DNA of 64,000 nucleotides, taken from positions 71,819,266 to 71,883,265 of the forward strand of contig NC_084837.1 of NCBI RefSeq assembly GCF_033115175.1. Direction: 5' to 3'. The notes under the pieces were generated by a model that saw only the letters and a program-made list of their open reading frames with translations, was not told the origin of the DNA and ran no database searches. The translations under genes and the position numbers were made by a program. Every line of letters begins with the position of its first letter. The first letter of the stretch is position 1. Source of the DNA: Lepus europaeus. Lineage: Eukaryota; Chordata; Mammalia; Lagomorpha; Leporidae. Below are positions 25,891-50,545 of this stretch, in pieces.

Positions 25891-26806
25891 ACACCATCAG
25901 TGACTCCTGCAGCCCGCAGCTGGAAGGGTCGCCATCTTCTCGGAGCAAGGGCCCCAGCAACAAGCAGGGAGGAAATGCCATCTTAATAAGATGAGTAGAG
26001 GCTGTTGCGGCCTACATACAACTGGGAGATTTATTGGAGGGATAAATCCATGGTCTGCATTGACTCAGAGTCTGGCCTGGAGGGTTGGCAGGAGTCAGGG
26101 CACCCACTTAGGCCCATGAAGTGCTCCCTCCATCTCATTCTATTAAGGTGGCCAGACTCAACTTGCCAAGATGGAACACCAACCAAACCTCTGTTGGTTA
26201 GGCAGTTGGCTCTGGAAATGCCATGGCTCTTTCAGTGGAGGGGGGAGGCTTGTGGGGCTGAGAATGGATATCTTGCTCCTTGTGACTGTGGGAAACTTGC
26301 ACGCTATGACTGGGAATTCTGTGACTGTAATAGGGCATGCAATAGGGTGTGACTAGATCTTTGGGCAATCCCTGTGTCTGTCTTCAGAGGCTCAGGGTTC
26401 TGTGCTCACACTGAGGAGCACACAGATACTTTGTGCAGTTCATGTGCCTGTGCTGTTGAGGCTACTAGGCACTCTAGGTGCACCCTGGGTGGGTGGTTCA
26501 CCTTGGCAGGGAGGGGCTGATGCTGTGGTCATACCAGCTAATGTGATCATACCTTCCCCTTACTGAAAATGAAGGAGATTTACCATGCCAAATATGGGTG
26601 TCATCCTGGCCTCTTGCCCCACCATTGAGCACTGTCAGGAGCTCCCTGGCCCAACCTAGCACACTCCTCTGGATAGCCACTGAAGGAGCAGATATTCCAC
26701 TAAGCCAAAGAGGCATATTTCAAAGATAGAAGCCGTCAGAGGAGAAAACCAACATATGCCTAAAGTTAAATGTAGAAATACAAGGAACATGAACAAGTAA
26801 GAAAAT

Positions 26807-27780
26807 ATGACTCCCCAAAAAGAACACAACAACACTTCAATATTAGAATGTGAAGATGAAAAGATTGATGAACTGCCTGAAAAGGAATTCAAAAGAATAA
26901 TCATAAGATTACTCAAAAATACAGAGATGCAAATACATGAGTTAAAGAAATACATACACAACACAGATGAAAAATTCATAGAGATATTGAAGAGATACCA
27001 AACTGAAATGTTAGGAATGAAGACAGAAGAAAGAATGTCCAAGATAGAAGACAAACCTTTGGAAATATCTCAGTCAGAAAGAAGAAAAAGGAGGAAGAGG
27101 AGGAGCAGGGAAAGGAGGAGGACGAGGAAAAGAAGAGGAGGAAAGGAAGGGGGGGCAGAGGAGGAGGAGGAAAAAGAAGAGGAACAACAACCTCAACAAC
27201 AACTTAGGAAAACCAAAAACTGTGTTCAAGATTTATGGCAACTAGGAAATGACCAAATATGTATGTCTCAGGAGTCCTGGAGGCATGAAAAGAAAGAATG
27301 GATTAGAACACCTAGTTGGTGAATTAATACAGAAAACTTCATAATTTGGAAGATGATAGGGACATCCAAGTACAGGAAGCACATAGAACATGATCAGAAA
27401 AGATCTTCAACACAACACATTATAGTCAAACTTTCAAAAGTAAAACATAAAGAAAAGATTACAAAATATGCATGAGAGAAAAGCCAGATTACCTTCAAAG
27501 GATCTCCAAGTAAACTGAAAGCTGATTTTGTATCAGAAATACTACACAGTCTAGGAGAGAATGTAGACATAGTCCAAGTCCTAAAAAGAAAAAAAAATTG
27601 TCAACCCAGAATACTGTACCCAGCTCACATTTTTAAATGAAGGTGAAATAAAGACTTAACAAAACAAACAGAAATTGGAAAACTTTTTCACCACTCACTC
27701 AGACTTACAAATGATAATTAAGGATGTACTACACACAGAAACACAGAGAGATAGACAGCATCATGAACGAATGTGAAGGC
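26807..27780 (+). pseudogene. decayed L1 ORF1
   Basis: L1 ORF1 encodes an RNA-binding trimeric chaperone. Here the N-terminal coiled-coil half is open for about 90 codons (26807-27080, with LPEKEFKRIIIRLLKNTEMQ). It then enters an expanded GAGGA-rich tract (27080-27190) that encodes Arg/Glu runs, and frame is lost soon after (stop at 27322). The C-terminal half is still readable as DNA: TCAAACTTTCAAAAGTAAAA (RNA-binding domain) and TGTCAACCCAGAATACTGTA (C-terminal domain) align with the intact ORF1 at 46892-47926. Frameshifts and stops rule out a product. Confidence 0.8.
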
Positions 27781-27978
27781 AGAAAATCTCCTAGTAAAAG
27801 TACAAAACAAATTCAAAACAAACAGTAGGAATATTTATGGGAAAATGGTAAGACCAAGCCATTATTTGTCAATAATAACCTTGAAATGTCAGTATATTAT
27901 CAATAATAAACTTGTAAACTATCTAACTTCTCCAGTTAAAAGATACAGAATGGTTAAATGGATTCAAAAACAAGATTG

Positions 27979-28302
27979 GGGGCCAGCGCCGTGGCTTACT
28001 TGGTAAATCTTCTGCCTGCGGCACCGGTACTCCATATGGGTGCTGGGTTCTAGTCCCAGTTGCTCCTCTTCCAGTCCAGCTCTCTGCTATGGCCCGGGAG
28101 GGCAGTGGAGGATGGCCCAAGTCCTTGGGCCCCTGCACCCACATGGGAGACCAGGAAGAAGCACCTAGTTCCTGGCTTCAAATCGGCACAGTGCCGGCCG
28201 TAGCAGCCATTTGGGGAGTGAACCAATGGAAGGAAGACCTTTCTCTCTGTGTCTCTCTCTCATTGTCTATAACTCTACTTGTCAAATAAATAAAAAAAAA
28301 AA
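27979..28302 (+). mobile_element. CSINE inside the old L1
   Basis: The head is GGGGCCAGCGCCGTGGC and the tail AAATAAATAAAAAAAAAAAA. ACAAGATTG before and ACAAGATTT after form a short imperfect TSD and mark the L1 site it split. Confidence 0.93.
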
Positions 28303-30514
28303 AACAAGATTTGCTGCCTACAAGAAACACACTTCACCAACAAAACAAAAAGCCAAAAAAATAAATAAATAACAACACAGACTGAAAATGAAAGAATGGA
28401 AAAAGATACTCTATGCTACAGAAATCAAGAATGAACAAGAGTAGCCATCCTAATATTAGACAAAAAAGAGTTTAACTCAAAAATCGTTAAAAGAAACAAA
28501 GAAGGGCATTATGTAATGATTAAGGGATCAATTCAACAGGAAGATGTGACTATAATAAATGTATATGCACCAATGCCAGGGTGCCCAGCTATTTAGAACA
28601 AATGTTAATGGACTTAAAGAGAGACATAGACTCCAAAACAATAATAACGGGGAACTTTAACAGCCTACTTTCATCAGTGGACATATGAATTCAACACAAA
28701 AAAAATCAATAAAGAAACAACAGAGCTAGTCTACACTATGGACCAACTGGATCTAATTGATATCTACAGAACATTTCATCCCACAGTTACAGAATATACA
28801 TTCTTTCCATCAGTGCAGGGAATTTTCTCTAAGATAGACCATATGCTAGGCCATAAAGCAAGTCTCAACAAATTACAAAAAAATTGAAATCATACCATAT
28901 ATAGTTCTGACCACAATGGAATGAAGCTGAAAATTAGCAACTTAAGAAACTCTATAAAATGTGCAAACACATGGAGACTGACCAACATACTCCTGAATGA
29001 ACAGTGGGTGATAGAAGAAAGCAGAGGGAAATCAAAAAATTTCTAGAACAAATGAAGATGACAACACAACATATTAAAATTTATGAGATACAGCAAAAAC
29101 AGTGTTAAAGGGAAAGTTTAGAGCAATTAGTGCCTACATCAAATAATTGATCTATCAATACATCTCAATTATATAGAAAAACAATAACAAACAAACCCAA
29201 AATCAATAAGATGAAAGAAATAATTAAAATTAAAGAATAAAAAACAAAATCAAAATTGAAGCCAAAAAAATACAAAAGATCAGTGAAATGAAGAGCTATT
29301 TTAAAAAAGAAATAAACAAAATTAATATATCATTGACCCAATTAACCTAAAAAAAGGGGAGAAGACCCAAATTAATGAAATCAGAGACAAAAAAAGGAGA
29401 AGTTACAATGGATATCACAGAAATAAAAAGAATCATCTGGAATTACTACAAATCCCTATATGCCAACAAACTGGAAAATCAAGAAGAAATGGATAGATTC
29501 CTAGACTCATACAATATACCAAAATTAAGTCATGAAGACATAGAAAAGCTAAATAGACCAATAATCAAGATGGAGATTGAATCAATAATGAAGACCCTCC
29601 AACAAAGAAAAGCCCAAGGCCAGATGGCTTTACTGCTGAAATTCTACCAAACTTTTGAAGAAGAACTAACATCAATCCTCAAAATATTCAAAACAACTGA
29701 AAGGGAGGGAATCCTCCAAAACTCCTTCTATGAGTTTAGATTCACCTTAATTCTAAAATCAGAAAAAGATATAACAAATAAAAAGAACTACAGACCAATA
29801 TCCCTAATGAACATAGATGCAAAAATCCTCAACAAAATACTGGCTAATAGAATCCAACAACCCATCAGAAAGATCATACACCCAAATGAAGTAGGATTTA
29901 TCCCTGGTGTGCATGGATGGTTCAACATTGACAAATCAATAAATATGATATATCACATAAACAAAATGAAGGAAAAAACCATATAGTTATCTCAACAGAT
30001 GCAGAGAAAGCATTTGATTAAATACAACATTATTTCATTAAAAAAAATCTTAAGCAAATTGGGTAAAGAAGGAACATTCTTCAACATGATCAAGGCAATA
30101 TATGACAAACTCACAGCCAGGATCATATTGAATGGGAAAAAGTTGGAAGCATTTCCAATATGGTCAGGAACCAGACAAGTATCCCAGTTTTCACCATTGC
30201 TACTCAATATAGTTCTGGAAATTTTAACCACAGCCATTAGACAAGAAAAATAAATGAAAGGGATACAAATTGGAAAGGAGAAGTCAAACTATCCCTCTTT
30301 GCAGATAACAGGATCCTATATATAGGGGAACCAAAAGACTCTACTAACAGACTATTAGAGCTCATAAGAGAGCTTTGTAAAGTTACAGGATATAAAATCA
30401 ATACACAAAAATCAATAGCCTTTGTGTATACAAAGCCATGACTGAGAAAGAATTTGTACAATATGTACCACTCACAATAGCTACAAAAAAATTAAATACC
30501 TTGGAATAAATTTA

Positions 30515-31099
30515 TTTTTTATTTAGTAAATATAAATTTCCAAAGTACAGTTTATGGATTACAATGGCTTCCCCCCACATAATTTCCCTCCCACTCGCAC
30601 CCCTCCCATCTCCCACTCCCTCTCCCATTCCATTCACATCAAGATTCATTTTCAATTATCTTTATATACAGAAGATCAATTTAGTATATATTAAGTAAAG
30701 ATTTCATCAGTTTGCACCCACACAGAAACACAAAGTGTAAAATACTGTTTCAGGACTAGTTATAGCATTACTTCACATTGGACAACACATTAAGGACAGA
30801 TCCCACATGAGGAGTAAGTACACAGTGACTCCTGTTGTTGACTTAACAATTTGACACTCTTGTTTATGGCGTCAGTAATCTCCCTAGGCTCTAGTCATGA
30901 GTTGCCAAGGCTATGGAAGCCTTTTGAGTTCACCGACTTCGATCTTATTCCGACAGGGTCATAGTCAAAGTGGAAGTTCTCTCCTCCCTTCAGAGAAAGG
31001 TACCTCCTTCTTTGATGGCCCCATTCTTTCCACTGGGATCTCACTTGCAGAGATCTTTCATTTAGGTCTTCTTTTTTTTTTTTCCAGAGTGTCTTGGCT
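30515..31099 (-). mobile_element. 5'-truncated young L1 3' UTR, reversed, with 18-bp TSD
   Basis: Read on the - strand this is an L1 3' UTR with the G-rich tract (complement at 30575-30640), TTGATGTGAATGGAATGGGA and a terminal poly(A) (T-run at 30515). TACCTTGGAATAAATTTA occurs at 30497-30514 and again at 31100-31117. It inserted into the ORF2 of the older L1 in the opposite direction. Its 5' end carries an internal T13 (31072-31084). Confidence 0.93.
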
Positions 31100-31208
31100 T
31101 ACCTTGGAATAAATTTAATCAAGGATGTGAAAGATCTCTACAGTGAAAATTACAAAACAGTAGAGAAAGAAATAGAAGATGACACTGAAAAATGAAATAA
31201 TCTTCTAG

Positions 31209-31541
31209 GGTCGGCGCTGTGGTGCAGTGGGTTAACACCCTGGCCTGAAGCACCAGCATCCCATATGGCTGTCGGTTCTAGTCCTGGCTGCTCCTCTTCT
31301 GATCCAGCTCTCTGCTGTGGCCTGGGATAGCAGTGGAGGATGGCCCAAGTCCTTGGGCCCCTGCACCCACATGGGAGACCAGGAAGAAGCTCCTGGCTCC
31401 TGGCTTCAGATCAGTGCAGCTCCGGCCGTTACAGCCATCTGAGGAGTGAACCAGCAGATGGAAGACCTCTCTCTCTGTCTCACTTCTCTCTGTAACTCTG
31501 TCTTTGAAATAAATAAAAATAAATCTAAAAAAAGAAAGAAA
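31209..31541 (+). mobile_element. CSINE inside the old L1
   Basis: The head is GGGTCGGCGCTGTGGTGC and the tail AAATAAATCTAAAAAAAG. AATAATCTTCTA before and AAGAATCTTCTA after form an imperfect TSD. Confidence 0.93.
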
Positions 31542-32312
31542 GAATCTTCTATGTTTGTGTATTGAAAAAATTAGTATCATCAAAATGTCTATACTACCCA
31601 AAGCAATTTACAGAATCAATGTGATCCCAATCAAAATTGGACATTCTTCTCAGATCCAGAAAAACAATGCTAAAATTCATATGGAGACTTAAGAGACCCC
31701 AAATAGCTAAGGCAATCTTAAACAGAAAAAACAAGCTGGAGACATCACAACACCAGATTTTAAGATGTTATATAGGGCAGTTATCATAAAAACATCCTGG
31801 AATAGAAATTCCAGAAATTAATCCTCATTGCTACAACCAACTAATCTTTGATAAACATGCTAAAATGAATCCCTGGGGAAATGACAGTTTCTTAATAAAC
31901 AGTGTTGGGAAAACTGGATCTACTCATCAAGAAGTATGAAAGACCCCATACTTTACACTTATAAAAAGGCAACTAAAAATAGATCAAGGATCTAAATCCA
32001 TGACCTGATACCATCAAATTACTAGAGGAAAACATCCAGGAAACTCTCAAGATACAGCCATAGACAAAGACTTCTTGGAAAAGACCCCAGAAGCCCAGGC
32101 AATAAAGCAAAAATTGACAAATGGGATTACATCAAGCTAAGAAGCCTCTGTACTACAAAGGAAATACTCAACAAAGTGAAGAGGCTACCAACAGAATGGG
32201 AGAAAATATTTGAAAACTATGCAACTGATAAAGGATTAATGATCTATAAGGAGCTCAAGAAACTAAAGAACAATAAAACAGCTCTACTGGCAGATGTCTG
32301 GCTCTACTGTGA

Positions 32313-34215
32313 GATGGCTCACAGGAGGTTCTCTGCACCCAGACATGGAAGCACAGTAGCAGGCATGGGGGAAGGTGAAGTGTTCCCAAGGATGACTCGT
32401 CCAAGCCTATGCACCTCACCACCTTCTTGGGCTCCAAGGACAGCATCACTCACATTGTGGAGGAAGTCAACAGGCTGGGCTCCAAGGTGAACAAGAAGCA
32501 AGCTGTAGAGGCTGTGACCATGGTGAAGACACCGCCCATGGTGGTTGTAAGCATCATGGACTACGTGGAAACCCCTCGAGGACTCTGCACCTTCAAGACC
32601 ATCTTTGCTGAGCCTATCAGTGATGAGTGCAAAAGGCACTTTTACAATCACTGGCACAGCGAGGCCAAGGCAAATTTGGCTGGCTGACAAGTTCACAGCA
32701 GAAGGTCTGTCTCAGCAAGGCATGAGAAGGACAGCTGCGGTCGTCTTGGTGGTTTTAGGTTTGCTGGGAACTACACTCTGCATAAGAAAGCTGGAGCTTC
32801 CTGGTGGTTCTGCTAATGATTTCTGTATTTCTAATTTTAGGGAAGAACACTTAGTCTCATAATCCCCAAAATGTCCATTGCTTTGTAGAATTTTAATCAA
32901 GCAGAATGTTAATATAGGAGAAGGGGTTAATGCTTTATGCAGGGTTGAGCTGTTTGTGGGAAAGAATTAAAAGGCAACAGGCTCCCTGGTGTATACTTCC
33001 CATTAAAACAAAGATAAATGTTATTAAAGCTTTAATTCTATATGTGCAACAAATACAACAATGGTTAGGTTGTCAAAACTGTGGAACAGATCTAAGTGAA
33101 CCTTTAGATAAGTACAATAAAGAAATTAGAATTACAGAAAAAACTGCAAAAGAGGGGATACATTTAAAAAAGGGCCTGCTTTGAATATTGGGGCTTCTAG
33201 TAATTAAATTAGGAAGATAATATTCTAGCTTGTGTAATTAATTTCTGCATAGCTCGGCAGCACTCCAGGCCTTGGCTAGTGTGAGCAGCCCATTGTCTCC
33301 CACCTGTCTGTGATTGTAACCCATGCTCTGAATATGCCCTTGAAAATCAAAGAAGTTGTAACTAGATATAGACATAGAATCTAGAGGCAACATAAAATAC
33401 AAGGTCAAAGGTTCTAAGAAAATGGACAATAGACTTGTTATTGTAAGAAGAAAGAATCACTATGTGACTTATGATGTAAAAATAAAGTCTGGTGCTCAAG
33501 AGCCAGAGCCATACCATCAGCCTTGCTGTGAGTGTGTCTCATTTCTTCCTGTGCCGATGCCTCCCACACCTTCAGGAACCCCCGGAATGCTGGAGCTGAA
33601 CTCCGATACTGGCATAAATTGAAGAAGAAGGCCTTCACCAAGTAGCGTAGGAAGTGGCAGGATGACAAGGGCAAGAAGGACTTCAACAGCATGAAGAAGT
33701 ACTGCCAGATCATCTGCATCAGTGCCCACATGCAGATGCGCCTTCTTCCTCCACAGTAGAAAAAGCCCACCTGACGCAGATCCAGGTGAACGGCAGCACC
33801 GTGGCTGAGAAACTAAACGGTCTTGGAATGGCTGGAGCAGCAAATCCCAGTGAACCAAATGTTTGGTCAGGACGAGATGATCGATGTCACTGAGGTGACC
33901 AAGGGCAAAGGCTACAAAGAGGTCACCAGCTACTGGCACACCAAGAAACTGCCATGCAAGACCCACCAGGGTTGGGCAAGTTCGCCTGTATTGAAGTGTG
34001 GCACACTGCAAGGGTGGCCTTCTCCGTGACACAGGCTGGGCAGAAAGGCTGCCATCACTGAACAGAGATCAACAAGAAGACCTACAACATTGGGTAGGGT
34101 TACCTGGTCAAGGATGGCAATGCCTCTGCTAACTAGGACCTGTCTGACAAGAGCATTGACCCTCTGGGTGGCTTTGTGCATTATGGTGAAGTGACCAATG
34201 ACTTTATGTTTTTGC
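32313..34215 (+). pseudogene. RPL3: RPL3 processed pseudogene, split by an LTR and truncated
   Basis: RPL3 is large-subunit ribosomal protein L3, a source of many mammalian retropseudogenes. The intronless copy begins at ATG 32313 (MAHRRFSAPRHGS) and continues with [12 protein letters not shown] and [10 protein letters not shown]. It is cut at about 32670 and resumes at 33615 with KKAFTK-like codons, then [20 protein letters not shown] and [13 protein letters not shown]. It ends near [13 protein letters not shown] (about residue 285 of about 403). An N-terminal deletion removes the basic Arg/Lys patch after residue 13, and there are several frameshifts and stops. The last third and the normal poly(A) are missing and L1 3' UTR sequence follows directly. 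RPL3L is less likely, since QDEMIDV-type residues fit RPL3 better. Confidence 0.9.
32677..33614 (+). mobile_element. solo LTR inserted in the RPL3 pseudogene
   Basis: The RPL3 reading is interrupted by 938 bases that start TGGC and end GGCA. CAAATT (32671-32676) precedes it and TAAATT (33615-33620) follows, a six-base duplication with one mismatch, as ERVK-class (class II) LTRs make. A polyadenylation-like AATAAAG lies at 33480. No gag, pol or env body is present, so it is most likely a recombined solo LTR. Family assignment is inferred from length and TSD size. Confidence 0.6.
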
Positions 34216-42245: not shown

Positions 42246-42720
42246 TTTTTTTTAAACTTTTATTTAATGAATATAAATTTCCAATGTACAGCTTATGGAT
42301 TACAATGGCTTCCCCCTCCCATAACTTCCCTCCCACCCACAACCCTCCCCTCTCCCGCTCCCTCTCCCCTTCTATTCACATCAAGATTCATTTTCAATTA
42401 TCTTTATATACAGAAGATCAATTTAGTATATATTAAGTAAAGATTTCAACAGTTTGCACCCACCTAGAAACACAAAGTGAAACATACTGTTTGAGTACTA
42501 GTTATAGCATTAAATCACAATGGACAGCACATTAAGGACAGAGAACCCACATGAGGAGCAAGTGCACAGTGGCTCCTGTTGTTGACCCAACAAATTGACA
42601 CTCTAGTTTTTGGCGCCAGTAACCACCCTAGGCTGTCGTCATGAGTTGCCAAGGCTATGGAAGCCTTCCAAGTTTGCCGACTCTGATCATATTTAGACAA
42701 GATCATAAAAGACAGAGTGA
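42246..42720 (-). mobile_element. L1 3' UTR of composite copy 1
   Basis: On the - strand this ends in TTCATTAAATAAAAGTTTAA and poly(A), and includes the G-rich tract (complement at 42313-42366). It is homologous to the plain L1 3' UTR at 30515-31099 as far as about 42720, beyond which similarity to ordinary L1 fades. Confidence 0.85.
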
Positions 42721-43279
42721 GGATAGTAACCAATGATCCTAAGAGTGGCATTTACCAGGTTTGAACAATTATACAGCATTAAGTGGGGAAGAGGACCATC
42801 AGTACACACAGGTTGGGAGTAGAGCCATTGGTGGTAGAGTAGAGGTTATGATTACGAAGGAATGAGGCCCAAGTACACTAGACAGGGCCTAGAACAAAGG
42901 ACAGAGTCATTATTAGTGGAGCTAAGAAAGGTGCTGTCTAAGCTACAATTAAGTTTTCTGATTGAGAGGCAAATAGAACCTGATAGAAGGGGCTTGATAA
43001 TAATCTGGTGGGCTTTAGGCCTTGTAAGTTAAGAGGCCCAGACCTATCTATCTCTTCACTTTGGGTATATCCTAAGGGAGGTGTGAACCTCCTAGGGGAA
43101 GGCACTCTGTTGACTTTCATTACTTGGCTGGCCTGGGAGGAGAGCTGGCCAGGTAAAGGCAGGTGGCATCTCTAACAAGAAATTTACAGTTCTGCCTGCA
43201 ATGTTGCTGACCCTACTTGACCATCCCCTCAGCTGCAGTGGTCACTTTGGAAGCTGGGCTGAGTGAAGGGCTTTTCAGC

Positions 43280-43591
43280 TTAGAGCCAATAAGATCTGTG
43301 GCTCTGACCTGGGCATCCTTCGACTCCAGGGCAGGTCCATTTCCAGTGATCCAACTCTTGGCAGAGCTGCCAGGGCTCTCCACAAGCTGACTTCTGCTGA
43401 AGCCCAGGCTTACCACATTGAAAGCCACTGCAGTGGACTGGCCTGTTGGGTCTCCTTGAGGGCAGATCACTGTACAGATCAGCCATTAATAGGCCTGCCA
43501 CCCATTGCTTCTGATGCCGAGCTTTCTTTTCCTCCTGGTTTGTGTTAAAGCAGACCAGAGGATGCAAGTCAAGGGAGTGCCCGTTTCCCAT
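43280..43591 (-). pseudogene. degenerate retroviral gag nucleocapsid segment (copy 1)
   Basis: The 103-codon reading on the - strand is identical in protein to that at 49189-49500. It contains two decayed CCHC zinc-knuckle-like blocks: FQCGKPGLQQKSAC (first Cys and His replaced) and LCQELDHWKWTC (Cys-x4-His-x4-Cys kept, first Cys replaced). Retroviral Gag nucleocapsids use such knuckles to bind genomic RNA. The reading stops after about 300 bases and protease-like sequence is not continuous. It resembles a gammaretrovirus-type Gag, by motif spacing only. Confidence 0.6.
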
Positions 43592-43830
43592 CTCTAATCT
43601 TCGGTGGCCTGAACTACAAGTCTATAGTCACAGGCATGTTCTGTAGTAGTTTTTCTAAGGTAGACAATGCCCATGAGGAAAATTATATTCTCACTTTAAA
43701 ACTTTCTTTCCCTTTGGTCTGAAAGGGAGGTTTTTTCTACTTACTGTATACTTGGCTGATGGCGAGGTGAATCTAGCTATGAGATTATTATTTAAGTTCT
43801 TGTTTTGGCTATGCTATTACAGAAAAATGT

Positions 43831-45369
43831 TTGACATAGAATTAAACTCTGATGCTCTGTTAAAGCAATGTGTTAAAGTAATCTATTATGTTCTCTTGAT
43901 ATCTGTTAAATTCTAAGTGTTCAAAAACAGCTGCATTTTTATTAAGAGCTATGGGTTATTTAAATATGTGCTTATTTTCAAAGATTTGAATAATCACCTT
44001 GTAACAATGATCAAATTTGGTCTATGTTATGTCATGAATTTAAGGAATCTTATTTCAACCAGATATTTTGGATTTTGAGCCTTCTTGGCATTCTTGACAG
44101 GCATTCAAAAAATCAAAGTTTCAAACAATCTGGACTCTAAAATTTCCAGTAAATCCTGGACTTTGGTTTTTCCAGTTTGGGCCCAACTGAAAAAATCGAA
44201 GGACCTATGTCTCTCATCTTATAGAGACACCAACTAATCAGTCTATTTGGATTATATTAGAAGTACTGTCAAGATGTGATGTGGTACCAAACTTTAAGTT
44301 TCTATAATGGAAAATGCTATTAATACAAATGTTTGAGAATTAAAAATCTAATGATCTTGTGTTACTAGACATGATAGTTATCTTAATGAGAAAGCCCCAG
44401 AGGCCTAAAGGGTTAAATACTTGTAAAATCCTACAGGTGCTTTCAAAAATACTGTGAAGTAAGCAAGTGCCTCTTGTTGGTTGATGAGTTTATAATTTTA
44501 AACATGGCGACTTAAAGTCTTTTGTCATCCACAGTTATATATGATGTGCTGCTCATAAAACTAAAGTGTTGTTGGTTCTGTGTTTAGCTGTCCTCCTATA
44601 GGTTCCTATGGTCTTTTTCCAGCCACTTCTATTGGATTCAGTACTTTGGGATGGCTCTGTAAACAGATGAAGCCAATAATGTATTAACAGTACCAACTGA
44701 GAGAAAGTATGGTTAACTGAGGTTACTAAAAAGAAAAAGCAATTCAAATCAATTGGCAATCTACAAAAAGAGTTAAAGATTTTAAAAGCTATTATTAAAA
44801 TTGCTATATTGGTCTATTATGCTATGTTATATGTGTGTACATATTGTATGTCCACATGGGGAAATTTTATTAAGAGTTTTATTTTAAATGGCTTATAGAT
44901 AAGATTGTCCATAAATTTAAGTTGCTAAAATCAATCAAAGATACATTTTAATTTGTGTGACCTGAATCTGTGTATCATATGTTTTAAACTTGTTGGTAGA
45001 AAGAAACTAAAAACATTTTAGATGGTTGTGCTTAAGTTTACTGGTTAAACAAACTACACCATGTTAGATATTTAAGAGGTGTTTTCAAATACATGATTCT
45101 TAAAATTTATAGAAGGCATTGGACCTTCTGGTAAATGTTTTCTTAAGTTGTTATCTAATGGTTGAAACGGTTTGCTAAGTATTCATGTAATATTGCTATT
45201 GTCAGCAAGCAATCTAGGACTTGCTCCCTCATTTCTCTATTCTAAGCCCAACTTGTTCTTTCATTTCTCTATTCTCTTCAAGGTAGGAAACTAATTCTAT
45301 TATGAAGGAATCTGTAGGACGCACAATTTAATCTTTAGACCTTATAAAAGAGATGGCTAACATTTTTCT
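43831..45369 (+). repeat. module A of the composite element, inverted in copy 1
   Basis: An AT-rich 1.5-kb segment in the same + orientation as 47974-48960 and almost identical to it. It includes about 555 bases (roughly 43993-44546) absent from the other copy. I see no coherent open frame on either strand and cannot assign an origin; retroviral or host transcript are both possible. Confidence 0.8.
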
Positions 45370-45575
45370 GTAAATATTTTTAAAACATTCAAAACTACAC
45401 CTTGACCATAGGTAGAGAAGGTAACTTCTCAAGTTAAAAAGGAATGTTCACAATTTATCTTATAATGGGATAGAACACACCAGAAAACCCAGCAAGTTCC
45501 ATAACATAGAAATATCAAAAATAATACTATCTTATCTCAGTGAAACAAGACTACATATTGGAAATACAAAAAGGT

Positions 45576-45897: not shown

Positions 45898-45975
45898 ACA
45901 AAAACCAAAAAGCCCATTCTGCTTGGAAATTTTAAATATTTTATATTAAATCTCTTTTTAAAAGATTTATTTATC

Positions 45976-46891
45976 GGAGGCGGCAAGATGGCGGAATAGG
46001 CAGGAAGCACACTTAGTCCGGGGGCAGAGAAAGTTCAATATAAGTGGAGATACTGCAGGGTCAAGGAAGAGTAGGGGAAGAAACAGCAGAGGAAACTCTT
46101 CCGGAACTAGTGATTCACAGTGGACCTGCGTGGAGAGCGTGGGAGCCCAAGTTCGGGACACCAGCGGCAGACTCAACGCACCAGCGCTGGAACGCGAGGT
46201 GAGCCGAACCTCCATAGCCCGAGATACCAGCAGGCAAGCGGAAAGAGGAGGCTTGAGGGAACGAGGCTTGAAACTCCGTGGGGAAAAGTTCACCAGGCTA
46301 ACTAGAAGAGAGAGAAAAAAAAATAAAAAAAGTGACTGATACGGACACAAGTTTCTCTCTCTCCGCTCACCTCTCAAAGGCGAGCAAGACAGAGCAGGCG
46401 CCATTTTGGACATACGTCATAAGCAGGGTGACCTCAGGTCTGCACCAGCCCTGAGCCTAGCAAAAATCCTGACTCTGTGGGGAGTGGTGAAATAACAGGA
46501 GATTAGCATCTAACTTGGCAACCCAGTGGGAGACTGCAGGAGAATTGGAGCCCACACTGAGGGCAGCAGAGATTCCCTGTGTGGTCCTTGGGAAAGAGCT
46601 TCCGATCTCTGGCTCCTGTGGGTATATCATTTGCCTGCTAACTACCTCCAATTACGTTCAGCTGTGCGGAATTACTTCCCTTTTAAATCAAAAAAAGAAA
46701 GAGAGATTTACCACACCTAACCTGGGAGTGTCATCCTTGACACACCCTCAACCCTGAGGAACCAAACACAGCTCTCAGTCCACACTCATCTCAAGCCTCT
46801 AAGGCTCAACTGAAAGCAGACAGTCCACTTAATATAGAGCCATAGTGTAACAAGAAAAAACACCACAGTGAAGAAACCAAATATCTCCAAC
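45976..46891 (+). promoter_or_regulatory. L1 5' UTR with YY1-like site
   Basis: The element starts GGAGGCGGCAAGATGGCGGA. CAAGATGGCGG at 45984-45994 matches the YY1-type box that sits near the start of mammalian L1 promoters and sets the start point. The first ~480 bases are relatively CpG-rich. The full 5' end next to a TSD implies that a transcript starting at about position 1 was copied. Confidence 0.8.
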
Positions 46892-47926
46892 ATGCCAAAC
46901 AACAAACGCAAAAACCAAGCTAACAAGAACAAGGAAGACACTATGACGCCCCCAAATGAAAAAGACACCCCAATTCAAGATTATGAAGATGATGAGATCG
47001 AAGAAATGCAAGAAGCGGATCTCAAAAAATTGATAAGAACATTAAGAAGTTCTCAAAAACAAATTCTTGAACTACAGAAATCCTTCATGGACAAGATAGA
47101 AAACCTCTCTCGTGAAAGTGAAATATTAAGGAGGAATCAAAATGAAATGAAACAACTAGTGGAACAAGAAACTCTGATAGTGACTAGAAATCATAATGAA
47201 ATGAAGAGTTCAATAGATCAAATGACAAACACATTAGAGAGCCTTAAAAACAGAATGGGCGAAGCAGAAGAGAGAATATCAGACTTAGAAGACAGAGAAC
47301 AGGAAAGGAAACAGGCAAACCAAAGAAAAGAAGAAATTAGAAATCTAAAAAATATTGTCAGGAATTTACAGGATACTATTAAAAAACCCAACATTCGGGT
47401 TCTAGGAGTTCCTGAAGGCATGGAGAGGGAGAAAGGATTAGAAGGCATTTTCAGTGAGATACTAGCAGAAAATTTCCCAGGTTTGGAGAAGGACAGAGGC
47501 ATCTTAGTACAGGAAGCTTATAGAACCCCTAATAAACATGACCAAAAGAGATTCTCACCACGACATGTTGTAATCAAACTCACCACAGTGAAACATAAAG
47601 AAAAGATCCTAAAAGGTGCAAGAGAGAAACGTCGGATCACTCTTAGAGGATCTCCAATTAGACTCACAGCAGACTTCTCATCAGAAACCCTACAAGCTAG
47701 AAGGGAATGGCGAGACATAGCCCAGGAACTAAGAGAGAAAAACTGCCAGCCCAGAATACTATATCCTGCAAAGCTCTCATTTGTGAATGAAGGTGAAATT
47801 AAGACTTTTCATAGCAAACAGAAACTGAAAGAATTTGTTGCCACTCATCCTGCCCTGCAAAAGATGCTTAAAGATGTGTTACACACAGAAACACAGAAAC
47901 ATGGTCACCAATATGAAAGAAGGTAA
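46892..47926 (+). CDS. intact L1 ORF1 protein (344 aa)
   Basis: An RNA-binding, trimer-forming nucleic-acid chaperone that coats L1 RNA in cytoplasmic particles. Start ATG 46892 has A at -3; an upstream in-frame GTG extends the open frame to 46868 but is not a likely start. Residues about 20-150 are charged, with coiled-coil-type heptads (ESLKNRMGEAEERISDLEDR). Residues about 165-265 form the RRM-like domain (PNIRVLGVPEG; YRTPNKHDQKRFSPRHVVIK). Residues about 270-335 form the C-terminal domain (ARREWRDIAQELREKNCQPR, then ILYPAKLSF). The length is normal for the family and no stop or frameshift is present. The missing partner is ORF2, which should follow within about 50 bases. Confidence 0.93.
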   Translation: MPNNKRKNQANKNKEDTMTPPNEKDTPIQDYEDDEIEEMQEADLKKLIRTLRSSQKQILELQKSFMDKIENLSRESEILRRNQNEMKQLVEQETLIVTRNHNEMKSSIDQMTNTLESLKNRMGEAEERISDLEDREQERKQANQRKEEIRNLKNIVRNLQDTIKKPNIRVLGVPEGMEREKGLEGIFSEILAENFPGLEKDRGILVQEAYRTPNKHDQKRFSPRHVVIKLTTVKHKEKILKGAREKRRITLRGSPIRLTADFSSETLQARREWRDIAQELREKNCQPRILYPAKLSFVNEGEIKTFHSKQKLKEFVATHPALQKMLKDVLHTETQKHGHQYERR

Positions 47927-47973
47927 AGGAAGGAAACCTCACAGCAAAAGATCACAGGAAGCTCAATTTCTCT

Positions 47974-48960
47974 TTGACATAGAATTAAACTCTGATGCTC
48001 TGTTAAAGCAATGTGTTAAAGTAATCTATTATGTTCTCTTGATGTCTGTTAAATTCTAATTGTTCAAAAACAGCTGAATTTTTATTAAGAGCTATGGGTT
48101 ATTTAAATATGTGCTTTTTTCAAAAATTTGAATATCTGCTGCTCATAAAACTAAAGCGTTGTTGGTTCTGTGTTTAGCTGTCCTCCTATAGGTTCCTATG
48201 GACTTTTTCCAGCCACTTTTATTGTATTCAGTACTTTGGGATGGCTCTGTAAACAGATGAAGCCAATAATGTATTAACAGTACCAACTGAGAGAAAGTAT
48301 GGTTAACTGAGGTTACTAAAAAGAAAAAGCAATTCAAATCAATTGGCAATCTACAAAAAGAGTTAAAGATTTTAAAAGCTATTATTAAAATTGATATATT
48401 GGTCTATTATGCTATATTATATGTGTGTACATATTGTATGTCCACATGGGGAAATTTTATTAAGAGTTTTATTTTAAATGGCTTATAGATAAGATTGTCC
48501 ATAAATTTAAGCTGCTAAAATCAATCAAAGATACATTTTAATTTGTGTGACCTGAATCTGTGTATCATATGTTTTAGACTTGTTGGTAGAAAGAAACTAA
48601 AAACATTTTATATGGTTGTGCTTAAGTTTACTGGCTAAACAAACTACACCATGTTAGATATTTAAGAGGTGTTTTCAAATACATGATTCTTAAAATTTAT
48701 AGAAGGCATTGGACCTTCTGGTAAATGTTTTCTTAAGTTGTTATCTAATGGTTGAAACGGTTTGCTAAGTATTCATGTAATATTGCTATTGTCAGCAAGC
48801 GATCTAGGACTTGCTCCCTCATTTCTCTATTCTAAGCCCAACTTGTTCTTTCATTTCTCTATTCTCTTCAAGGTAGGAAACTAATTCTATTATGAAGGAA
48901 TCTGTAGGATGCACAATTTAATCTTTAGACCTTATAAAAGAGATGGCTAACATTTTTCTG
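47974..48960 (+). repeat. module A of the composite element (copy 2)
   Basis: Starts TTTGACATAGAATTAAACTC, exactly where homology to copy 1 begins, and ends CATTTTTCTG, where module B begins. It lacks about 555 internal bases that copy 1 has (junction near 48133-48137). Origin unknown. Confidence 0.8.
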
Positions 48961-49188
48961 CAATAGCATAGCCAAAATAAGAACTCAAATAATAATCTCA
49001 TAGCTAGATTCACTTCGCCATCAGCCAAGTATACAGTAAGTAGAAAAAACCTCCCTTTCAGACCAAAGGGAAAGAAAGTTTTAAAGTGAGAATATAATTT
49101 TCCTCATGGGCATTGTCTACCTTAGAAAAACTACTACAGAACATGCCTGTGACTATAGACTTGTAGTTCAGGCCACCGAAGATTAGAG

Positions 49189-49500
49189 ATGGGAAACGGG
49201 CACTCCCTTGACTTGCATCCTCTGGTCTGCTTTAACACAAACCAGGAGGAAAAGAAAGCTCGGCATCAGAAGCAATGGGTGGCAGGCCTATTAATGGCTG
49301 ATCTGTACAGTGATCTGCCCTCAAGGAGACCCAACAGGCCAGTCCACTGCAGTGGCTTTCAATGTGGTAAGCCTGGGCTTCAGCAGAAGTCAGCTTGTGG
49401 AGAGCCCTGGCAGCTCTGCCAAGAGTTGGATCACTGGAAATGGACCTGCCCTGGAGTCGAAGGATGCCCAGGTCAGAGCCACAGATCTTATTGGCTCTAA
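49189..49500 (+). pseudogene. degenerate retroviral gag nucleocapsid segment (copy 2)
   Basis: A 103-codon open reading begins MGNGHSLDL and carries the two zinc-knuckle-like blocks FQCGKPGLQQKSAC and LCQELDHWKWTC, followed by PGVEG. Only the second block keeps three of the four metal ligands, so metal binding is doubtful. Downstream to about 49860 other frames are open but discontinuous and may be the remains of the following protease region. Protein identity with copy 1 over all 103 codons points to recent copying, not independent decay. Confidence 0.6.
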
Positions 49501-50049
49501 GCTGAAAAGCCCTTCACTCAGCCCAACTTCCAAAGTGACCACTGCAGCTGAGGGGATGGTCAAGTAGGGTCAGCAACATTGCAGGCAGAACTGTAAATTT
49601 CTTGTTAGAGATGCCACCTGCCTTTACCTGGCCAGCTCTCCTCCCAGGCCAGCCAAGTAATGAAAGTCAACAGAGTGCCTTCCCCTAGGAGGTTCACACC
49701 TCCCTTAGGATATACCCCATGTGAAGAGATAGATAGGTCTGGGCCTCTGAATTTACAAGGCCTAAAGCCCACCAGATTATTATCAAGCCCCTTCTATCAG
49801 GTTCTATTTGCCTCTCAATCAGAAAACTTAATTGTAGCTTAGACAGCACCTTTCTTAGCTCCTCTAATAATGACTCTGTCCTTTGTTCTAGGCCCTGTCT
49901 AGTGCACTTGGGCCTCATTCCTTTGTAATCACAACCTCTACTCTACCACCAATGGCTCTACTCCCAACCTGTGTGTACTGATGGTCCTCTTCCCCACTTA
50001 ATGCTGTATAATTGTTCAAACCTGGTAAATGCCACTCTTAGGATCATTG

Positions 50050-50529
50050 GTTACTATCCTCACTCTGTCTTTTATGACCTTGTCTAAATATGATCAGAGT
50101 CGGTGAACTTGGAAGGCTTCCATAGCCTTGGCAACTCATGACAACAGCCTAGGGTGGTTACTGGCGCCATAAACTAGAGTGTCAATTTGTTGGGTCAACA
50201 ACAGGAGCCACTGTGCACTTGCTCCTCATGTGGGATCTCTGTCCTTAATGTGCTGTACATTGTGATTTAATGCTATAACTAGTACTCAAACAGTATGTTT
50301 CACTTTGTGTTTCTATGTGGGTGCAAACTGTTGAAATCTTTATACTAAATTGATCTTCTGTATATAAAGAGAATTGAAAATGAATCTTGATGCAAATGGA
50401 AGGGGAGAGGGAGCGGGAGGGGGGAGGGTTGCGGGTGGGAGGGAAGTTATTGGGGGGGGGAAGCCATTGTAATCCATAAGCTGTACACTGGAAATTTATA
50501 TTCATTAAATAAAAGTTAAAAAAAAAAAA
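50050..50529 (+). mobile_element. L1 3' UTR with G-rich tract, AATAAA and poly(A) (copy 2)
   Basis: Homologous to the reverse complement of 30515-30990. A G-rich stretch at 50402-50460 has many runs of three or more G and could form quadruplexes, as known for L1 3' UTRs. AATAAA lies at 50508-50513 and the A-tail from 50518. Confidence 0.88.
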
Positions 50530-50545
50530 GATTTATTTATCTGAG

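Follow-up and report, generated by a model that had tools for sequence, protein, structure and literature searches.

A stretch of 64,000 nucleotides of the Lepus europaeus genome (assembly GCF_033115175.1, contig NC_084837.1, forward-strand positions 71,819,266 to 71,883,265; hereafter the window) contains at 45976–50525 an L1-derived retrotransposon that has open reading frame 1 (ORF1), lacks ORF2 and carries a non-L1 module between its L1 parts. This element belongs to a large, very young and recently active family. Judging from sequence, we consider it probable that the family is non-autonomous and of the HAL1 (half-L1) type, i.e., that it supplies its own ORF1 protein (ORF1p), obtains ORF2p in trans and has a module that includes a decayed gag nucleocapsid segment. 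We regard it as a recently active HAL1 family because its copies are nearly identical, have their own target-site duplications (TSDs), keep ORF1 open and share exact junctions, and because the four full-length L1s of the same genome that we compared lack the module and the 5′ untranslated region of the element.

Anatomy of the element

A 16-bp TSD, AAAAGATTTATTTATC, identified by TSD search and copy comparison, brackets the element with copies at 45960–45975 and 50526–50541; the first A residues of the 3′ copy are indistinguishable from the poly(A) tail. The insertion site has the cut context CTTTTT/AAAAGA. All parts lie on the + strand. The 5′ untranslated region (UTR) of 916 bp (45976–46891), delimited by comparison with four full-length L1s, starts with GGAGGCGGCAAGATGGCGG. 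It is followed by ORF1 (46892–47926, 344 aa) and by an L1 inter-ORF spacer (47927–47966), recognized from its DNA match to the same L1s. The non-L1 block between the L1 parts spans 47967–50072 (2106 bp). Its first half (47967–49149), non-L1 by comparison, is AT-rich with about 28–40% GC and gave no Pfam match in any of the frames searched, and its second half (49150–50072) contains a probable gag nucleocapsid remnant with two degenerate zinc knuckles at 49354–49452. The L1 3′ UTR (50073–50525), defined by alignment of L1 3′ ends, contains a G-rich tract, AATAAA and the start of the poly(A).

An initial annotation, made from the sequence alone, had described such a composite. Its 16-bp TSD, intact 344-aa ORF1, L1 3′ UTR and poly(A) were all confirmed at 45976–50525, and its non-L1 module of about 2 kb corresponds to the 2106 bp at 47967–50072. 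The ORF1/module junction, placed near 47974, lies within 8 bp of the measured 47967, and the gag/3′ UTR junction, placed near 50050, is close to the measured start of 3′ homology at 50073. The L1 5′ UTR, as named there, held in part. The 5′ UTR begins with AAGATGGC, which we take to be a YY1-like motif, but only its last 21 bp align with the four L1s, and 45976–46870, which matches none of them, is L1 5′ UTR by inference. An Rfam search returned a single chance-level match at the 3′ edge (E 0.53). The L1 3′ UTR of the element and a short interspersed nuclear element from 50542 onward presumably resemble rabbit repeats, a likeness that points to a lagomorph.

A large and young family

The initial annotation had proposed a search for the junctions as a family check, and many copies with shared junctions and different TSDs were found; the ORF1/module junction is not unique to the window. 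A DNA search over this junction gave 357 first-look candidates, and all 40 that were scored were about 100% identical; with the module, 1099 first-look candidates were obtained and 40 of 40 scored at 99–100%. These first-look numbers are not counts of confirmed copies. Twenty copies were fetched out of the other 39 scored ORF1/module-junction matches; they are the copies most similar to that of the window and hence skewed to young ones. Seventeen of the 20 were full length, lacked ORF2, had their own TSDs and were 98.6–99.1% identical to the window element, in keeping with the earlier claim of an ORF1-only composite mobilized as one unit. The remaining copies were incomplete, i.e., L010 lacked 468 internal bp, L028 lacked the first 1161 bp and L021 was rearranged.

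All 17 fetched full-length copies carry the module. Together with the window copy, 18 full-length copies could be compared. The ORF1/module junction was exact in every one of them and the module/3′ UTR junction in 16. All TSDs had at least 9 bp (13–19 bp in 14 copies, 9–10 bp in four). The cut context had T at position −1 in 14/18, A at +1 in 13/18 and A at +2 in 14/18 copies, i.e., T/AAAA-like sites. Copies differed pairwise by 0.83% on average, and each was 0.24–0.84% away from the column majority. By region, the mean pairwise difference rose from 0.57% in ORF1, through 0.74% and 0.94% for the module halves and 0.97% for the 3′ UTR, to 1.14% for the 5′ UTR. Because the copies were picked by similarity at 47800–48150, favoring ORF1 and the first module half, these regional differences are weak evidence for a constrained ORF1 and lend no support to a constrained module. 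Neutral rates amount to a few substitutions per site in a thousand million years, and at this rate the copy divergence corresponds to a family age of about one to a few million years.

A second family copy lies in the window at 42246–45370 (listed without a strand), about 600 bp upstream of the element. It is truncated at element position 1998, its 3′ part is inverted, and it is interrupted at 43993–44543 by 551 bp of other DNA. Its pieces are 96.9–98.4% identical to the element, the inversion has the form typical of twin priming, and by eye a 13-bp repeat, GTAAATATTTTTA, is seen on both flanks.

Full-length L1s of the same genome

We compared the element with four full-length L1s (L043–L046), all of which have an open ORF1 of 345 aa and an open ORF2 of 1274 aa; against these, the absence of ORF2 from the element, as first annotated, was confirmed. 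On the DNA level the element matched them at 46871–47966 (90.7–90.8%) and 50226–50525 (84–85%). The 5′-side match covers ORF1 together with the preceding 21 nt and the 40 nt of spacer that follow, and the left edge of the non-L1 block sits 28 nt upstream of where the ORF2 start codon would be. Further matches were a 44-bp repeat piece and, in L043, a neighboring second L1 3′ end. Against this second 3′ end and the 3′ end of an old L1 in the window (86%), 3′ homology extends back to 50073. The module was found neither in the four full L1s nor in two other L1 3′ ends (window 30511–30963, L043 8677–9368), and none of the four carries the 5′ UTR of the element. When the module was compared with the L1 loci and with the window DNA beyond the two family copies, only chance-level pieces were obtained (E at least 0.41).

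The 5′ UTR of L043, L045 and L046 is built from tandem units of about 39 bp. In L045, the 3′ UTR apparently consists of two tandem L1 3′ ends with an A run between them. The tandem 5′ units and the doubled 3′ end suggest that both ends have turned over recently in the L1 lineage. A search with the reverse transcriptase domain RVT_1 gave 34328 candidates, and 59 of the 150 scored matches fell in open frames with a length of exactly 1274 or 1300 aa. The four fetched L1s are among these 59, and each has both ORFs open; L1s with intact frames therefore seem plentiful in this genome.

The old L1 of the window is broken and occupies 26700–32500, with an ORF1 remnant at about 26756–27771 and, by eye, an ORF2-like frame at 29351–29986; the L1 3′ end at 30511–30963 in this region is on the opposite strand.

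ORF1 and its selection

ORF1 of the window element is intact and contains the RNA-binding and C-terminal domains of L1 ORF1p. Pfam found both (Transposase_22, 1.8e-25; dsRBD-like, 2.2e-26), and solved L1 ORF1p chains were matched in the PDB, the best with 2.5e-63. The frame was open in all 18 full-length copies, the window copy included, with 344–345 aa, and 16 of the 17 others had 345 aa. The window ORF1 is one codon short near 47330 (KEE for KEEE), hence its 344 aa; ORF1 of L018 also has 344 aa, apparently via a different 3-bp loss.

Between the family and L1, ORF1 had a dN of 0.0545 and a dS of 0.274, i.e., a ratio of 0.20 (72 pairs). Fixed differences, pooled over both branches, comprised 34 nonsynonymous and 38 synonymous changes, compared with 73% nonsynonymous expected (p 2.7e-6). 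For a split by branch the old window L1 served as outgroup, which is merely 66% identical over ORF1. In a 405-bp part of ORF1 the HAL1 branch had ten synonymous and five nonsynonymous changes, the L1 branch had identical numbers, and four more changes were unassigned. The synonymous excess of the HAL1 branch over the neutral expectation had a p of 0.0014. The open frame and the selection on this older branch suggest that the element is functionally self-supplying in ORF1p. We dropped a cell-counted pN/pS of 0.26 in which shared sites had been counted many times, and preferred the count of events given below; a dN/dS of 2.9 among the four L1s was based on very few changes and was not used.

The gag-like stretch of the module

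Retroviral nucleocapsids have two zinc knuckles separated by a few residues. A pair of degenerate, knuckle-like motifs was found in one frame of the module at 49354–49452, with a motif score of 12 out of 18 positions. None of 1000 dinucleotide shuffles scored above 9, and none of 26 other window tiles above 8. We consider a gag nucleocapsid remnant in the second half of the module likely, but not proven. A protease remnant 3′ of the knuckles seemed plausible on inspection and was rejected, as it had 5 of 11 positions and was equaled in 1752 of 2000 mononucleotide shuffles. A PDB search with the nucleocapsid piece returned three cellular chains (E 0.91–1.1). In viral contigs, the gag-like peptide gave two pattern matches, neither of which was confirmed, and the degenerate knuckle pattern gave none.

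The predicted RNA fold of the gag half was not unusual (z −0.51). Divergence of the module among copies was not below that of the UTRs beyond what copy choice explains, and the module showed no sign of constraint among the young copies.

Discussion

In the mechanism that we propose, the 5′ UTR of the element would act as its own promoter and drive an RNA that is translated to ORF1p and then coated by it. ORF2p from co-resident full-length L1s, supplied in trans, would recognize the L1-type 3′ end with its poly(A) and copy the RNA at TT/AAAA-like sites through target-primed reverse transcription. The 2.1-kb non-L1 block with its decayed, presumably retroviral gag nucleocapsid segment would occupy the place of ORF2. 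Probably it was captured once by the lineage, ahead of the present expansion, and would have been copied with every full-length insertion. This scheme builds on features observed directly, i.e., the anatomy, shared junctions, separate TSDs, open ORF1, the absence of ORF2 and the presence of co-resident L1s with both ORFs open.

HAL1 retrotransposons were reportedly described by Bao and Jurka in 2010. According to a passage of PMC5753468, HAL1 encodes ORF1p alone and had several independent origins. Truncated L1 RNAs containing ORF1 might undergo retrotransposition (passage of PMC4859970), and HAL1 activity in rat is mentioned in a passage of PMC8535693. In a 2011 table, guinea pig and marmoset have young HAL1 families, whereas the three youngest families given for rabbit are endogenous retroviruses or long terminal repeats (LTRs) by name; a reviewer remarked on the low level of annotation for rabbit and hare (all in parts of PMC3183009).

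Like HAL1, the element is L1-derived and has ORF1 only, homologous to L1 ORF1; ORF2 is missing across the family and not from one copy alone (17 of the 20 fetched copies were full length without it), and the copies are L1-type insertions (TSD, poly(A), TT/AAAA-like sites), with a TSD of at least 9 bp in all 18 full-length ones. Unlike HAL1 as described in the passages of citing papers, it has a non-L1 module of 2.1 kb, gag-like in part, placed after the inter-ORF spacer and ahead of the 3′ UTR. As in SVA (SINE-R/VNTR/Alu), which carries env and LTR of HERV-K (passage of PMC4859970), a composite is inserted in L1 fashion. Whether it also resembles SVA in having a retroviral segment depends on the knuckle motif, which scored beyond shuffles and had no homologue in the searched collections. 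SVA is, however, without L1 ORF1 and hominoid-specific, whereas here the gag-like piece lies inside an L1 frame, and unlike SVA-type composites the element has coding capacity, with ORF1 open in 18/18. From autonomous L1 it differs by the lack of the ORF2 endonuclease and reverse transcriptase, and from L043–L046 in that these have ORF2, a tandem-repeat 5′ UTR (seen in three of four) and no module. The combination of HAL1 with a retroviral piece was not found in passages of the best-ranked papers of the literature searched, a scope outside which Repbase/Dfam and the original HAL1 paper lie. HAL1 elements are known, as are composites with retroviral pieces such as SVA, and an earlier description of the combination is possible.

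Several observations weigh against a HAL1-type family with a gag segment, and rival explanations draw on them. The element might move like SVA, with both L1 proteins in trans and ORF1 as a passenger that is open since the copies are young and stem from few masters. Among the young copies, with each event counted once, 28 of 43 ORF1 changes were nonsynonymous (2/5 of the shared, 26/38 of the single ones) compared with 73% expected, which is near neutral, as would be expected after insertion; selection on ORF1 is visible on the older branch only. Moreover, SVA and LAVA are mobilized in trans and need L1 ORF1p (passage of PMC7353768). The frame was nevertheless kept in 18 of 18 full-length copies, and the synonymous excess on the HAL1 branch equals that on the L1 branch, although the HAL1 branch may include time as a full L1, i.e., part of it may predate the loss of ORF2. 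We regard a passenger ORF1 as somewhat unlikely. That the knuckle likeness arose by chance or came from a cellular CCHC gene, so that the gag-like stretch is not retroviral, we think unlikely. The zinc-knuckle gag remnant of the initial annotation stood as far as the motif is concerned, but Pfam gave no match for four and nine further module frames, the PDB no retroviral match for the gag and pro frames, and the protein collection not a single candidate for the gag-like stretch; the protease motif was not significant, and the knuckle motif itself was fixed after the sequence had been seen. On the other hand, the paired motif scored above all shuffles and real tiles, and a closely spaced knuckle pair is the arrangement of retroviral nucleocapsids.

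The module could also be the long 3′ UTR of an L1 subfamily outside our sample, with capture by a full L1 and the element as its ORF2-deletion derivative; the deletion need not have stopped exactly at the module edge. Four full L1s are a small sample set against 34328 RVT_1 candidates (150 scored), and ORF1 of the element is about 9% away from the sampled L1s, so the parent L1 may lie outside them. Unrelated sequence is known to replace L1 5′ and 3′ UTRs (passage of PMC5753468). However, the module was absent from the four L1s and from two more L1 3′ ends, and we hold this origin to be quite unlikely. Within a HAL1-type family, an RNA element of the gag region, i.e., a packaging, export or ORF1p-binding signal, might give the transcript an edge in competing for ORF2p. 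This is weakened by the lack of an unusual fold in the gag half and of a divergence deficit in the module, and appears very unlikely. If true, an L1 that swapped ORF2 for a retroviral RNA signal would have become a successful L1 parasite, and the retroviral segment would not be cargo.

As a young, high-copy L1 parasite that keeps ORF1 beside L1s with open frames, the family would offer a natural system to ask why a borrower of ORF2p retains ORF1p, and whether ORF1p mediates the preference of L1 for its own RNA. Its module would make it possible to test directly whether foreign RNA, once captured, is helpful or a mere passenger.

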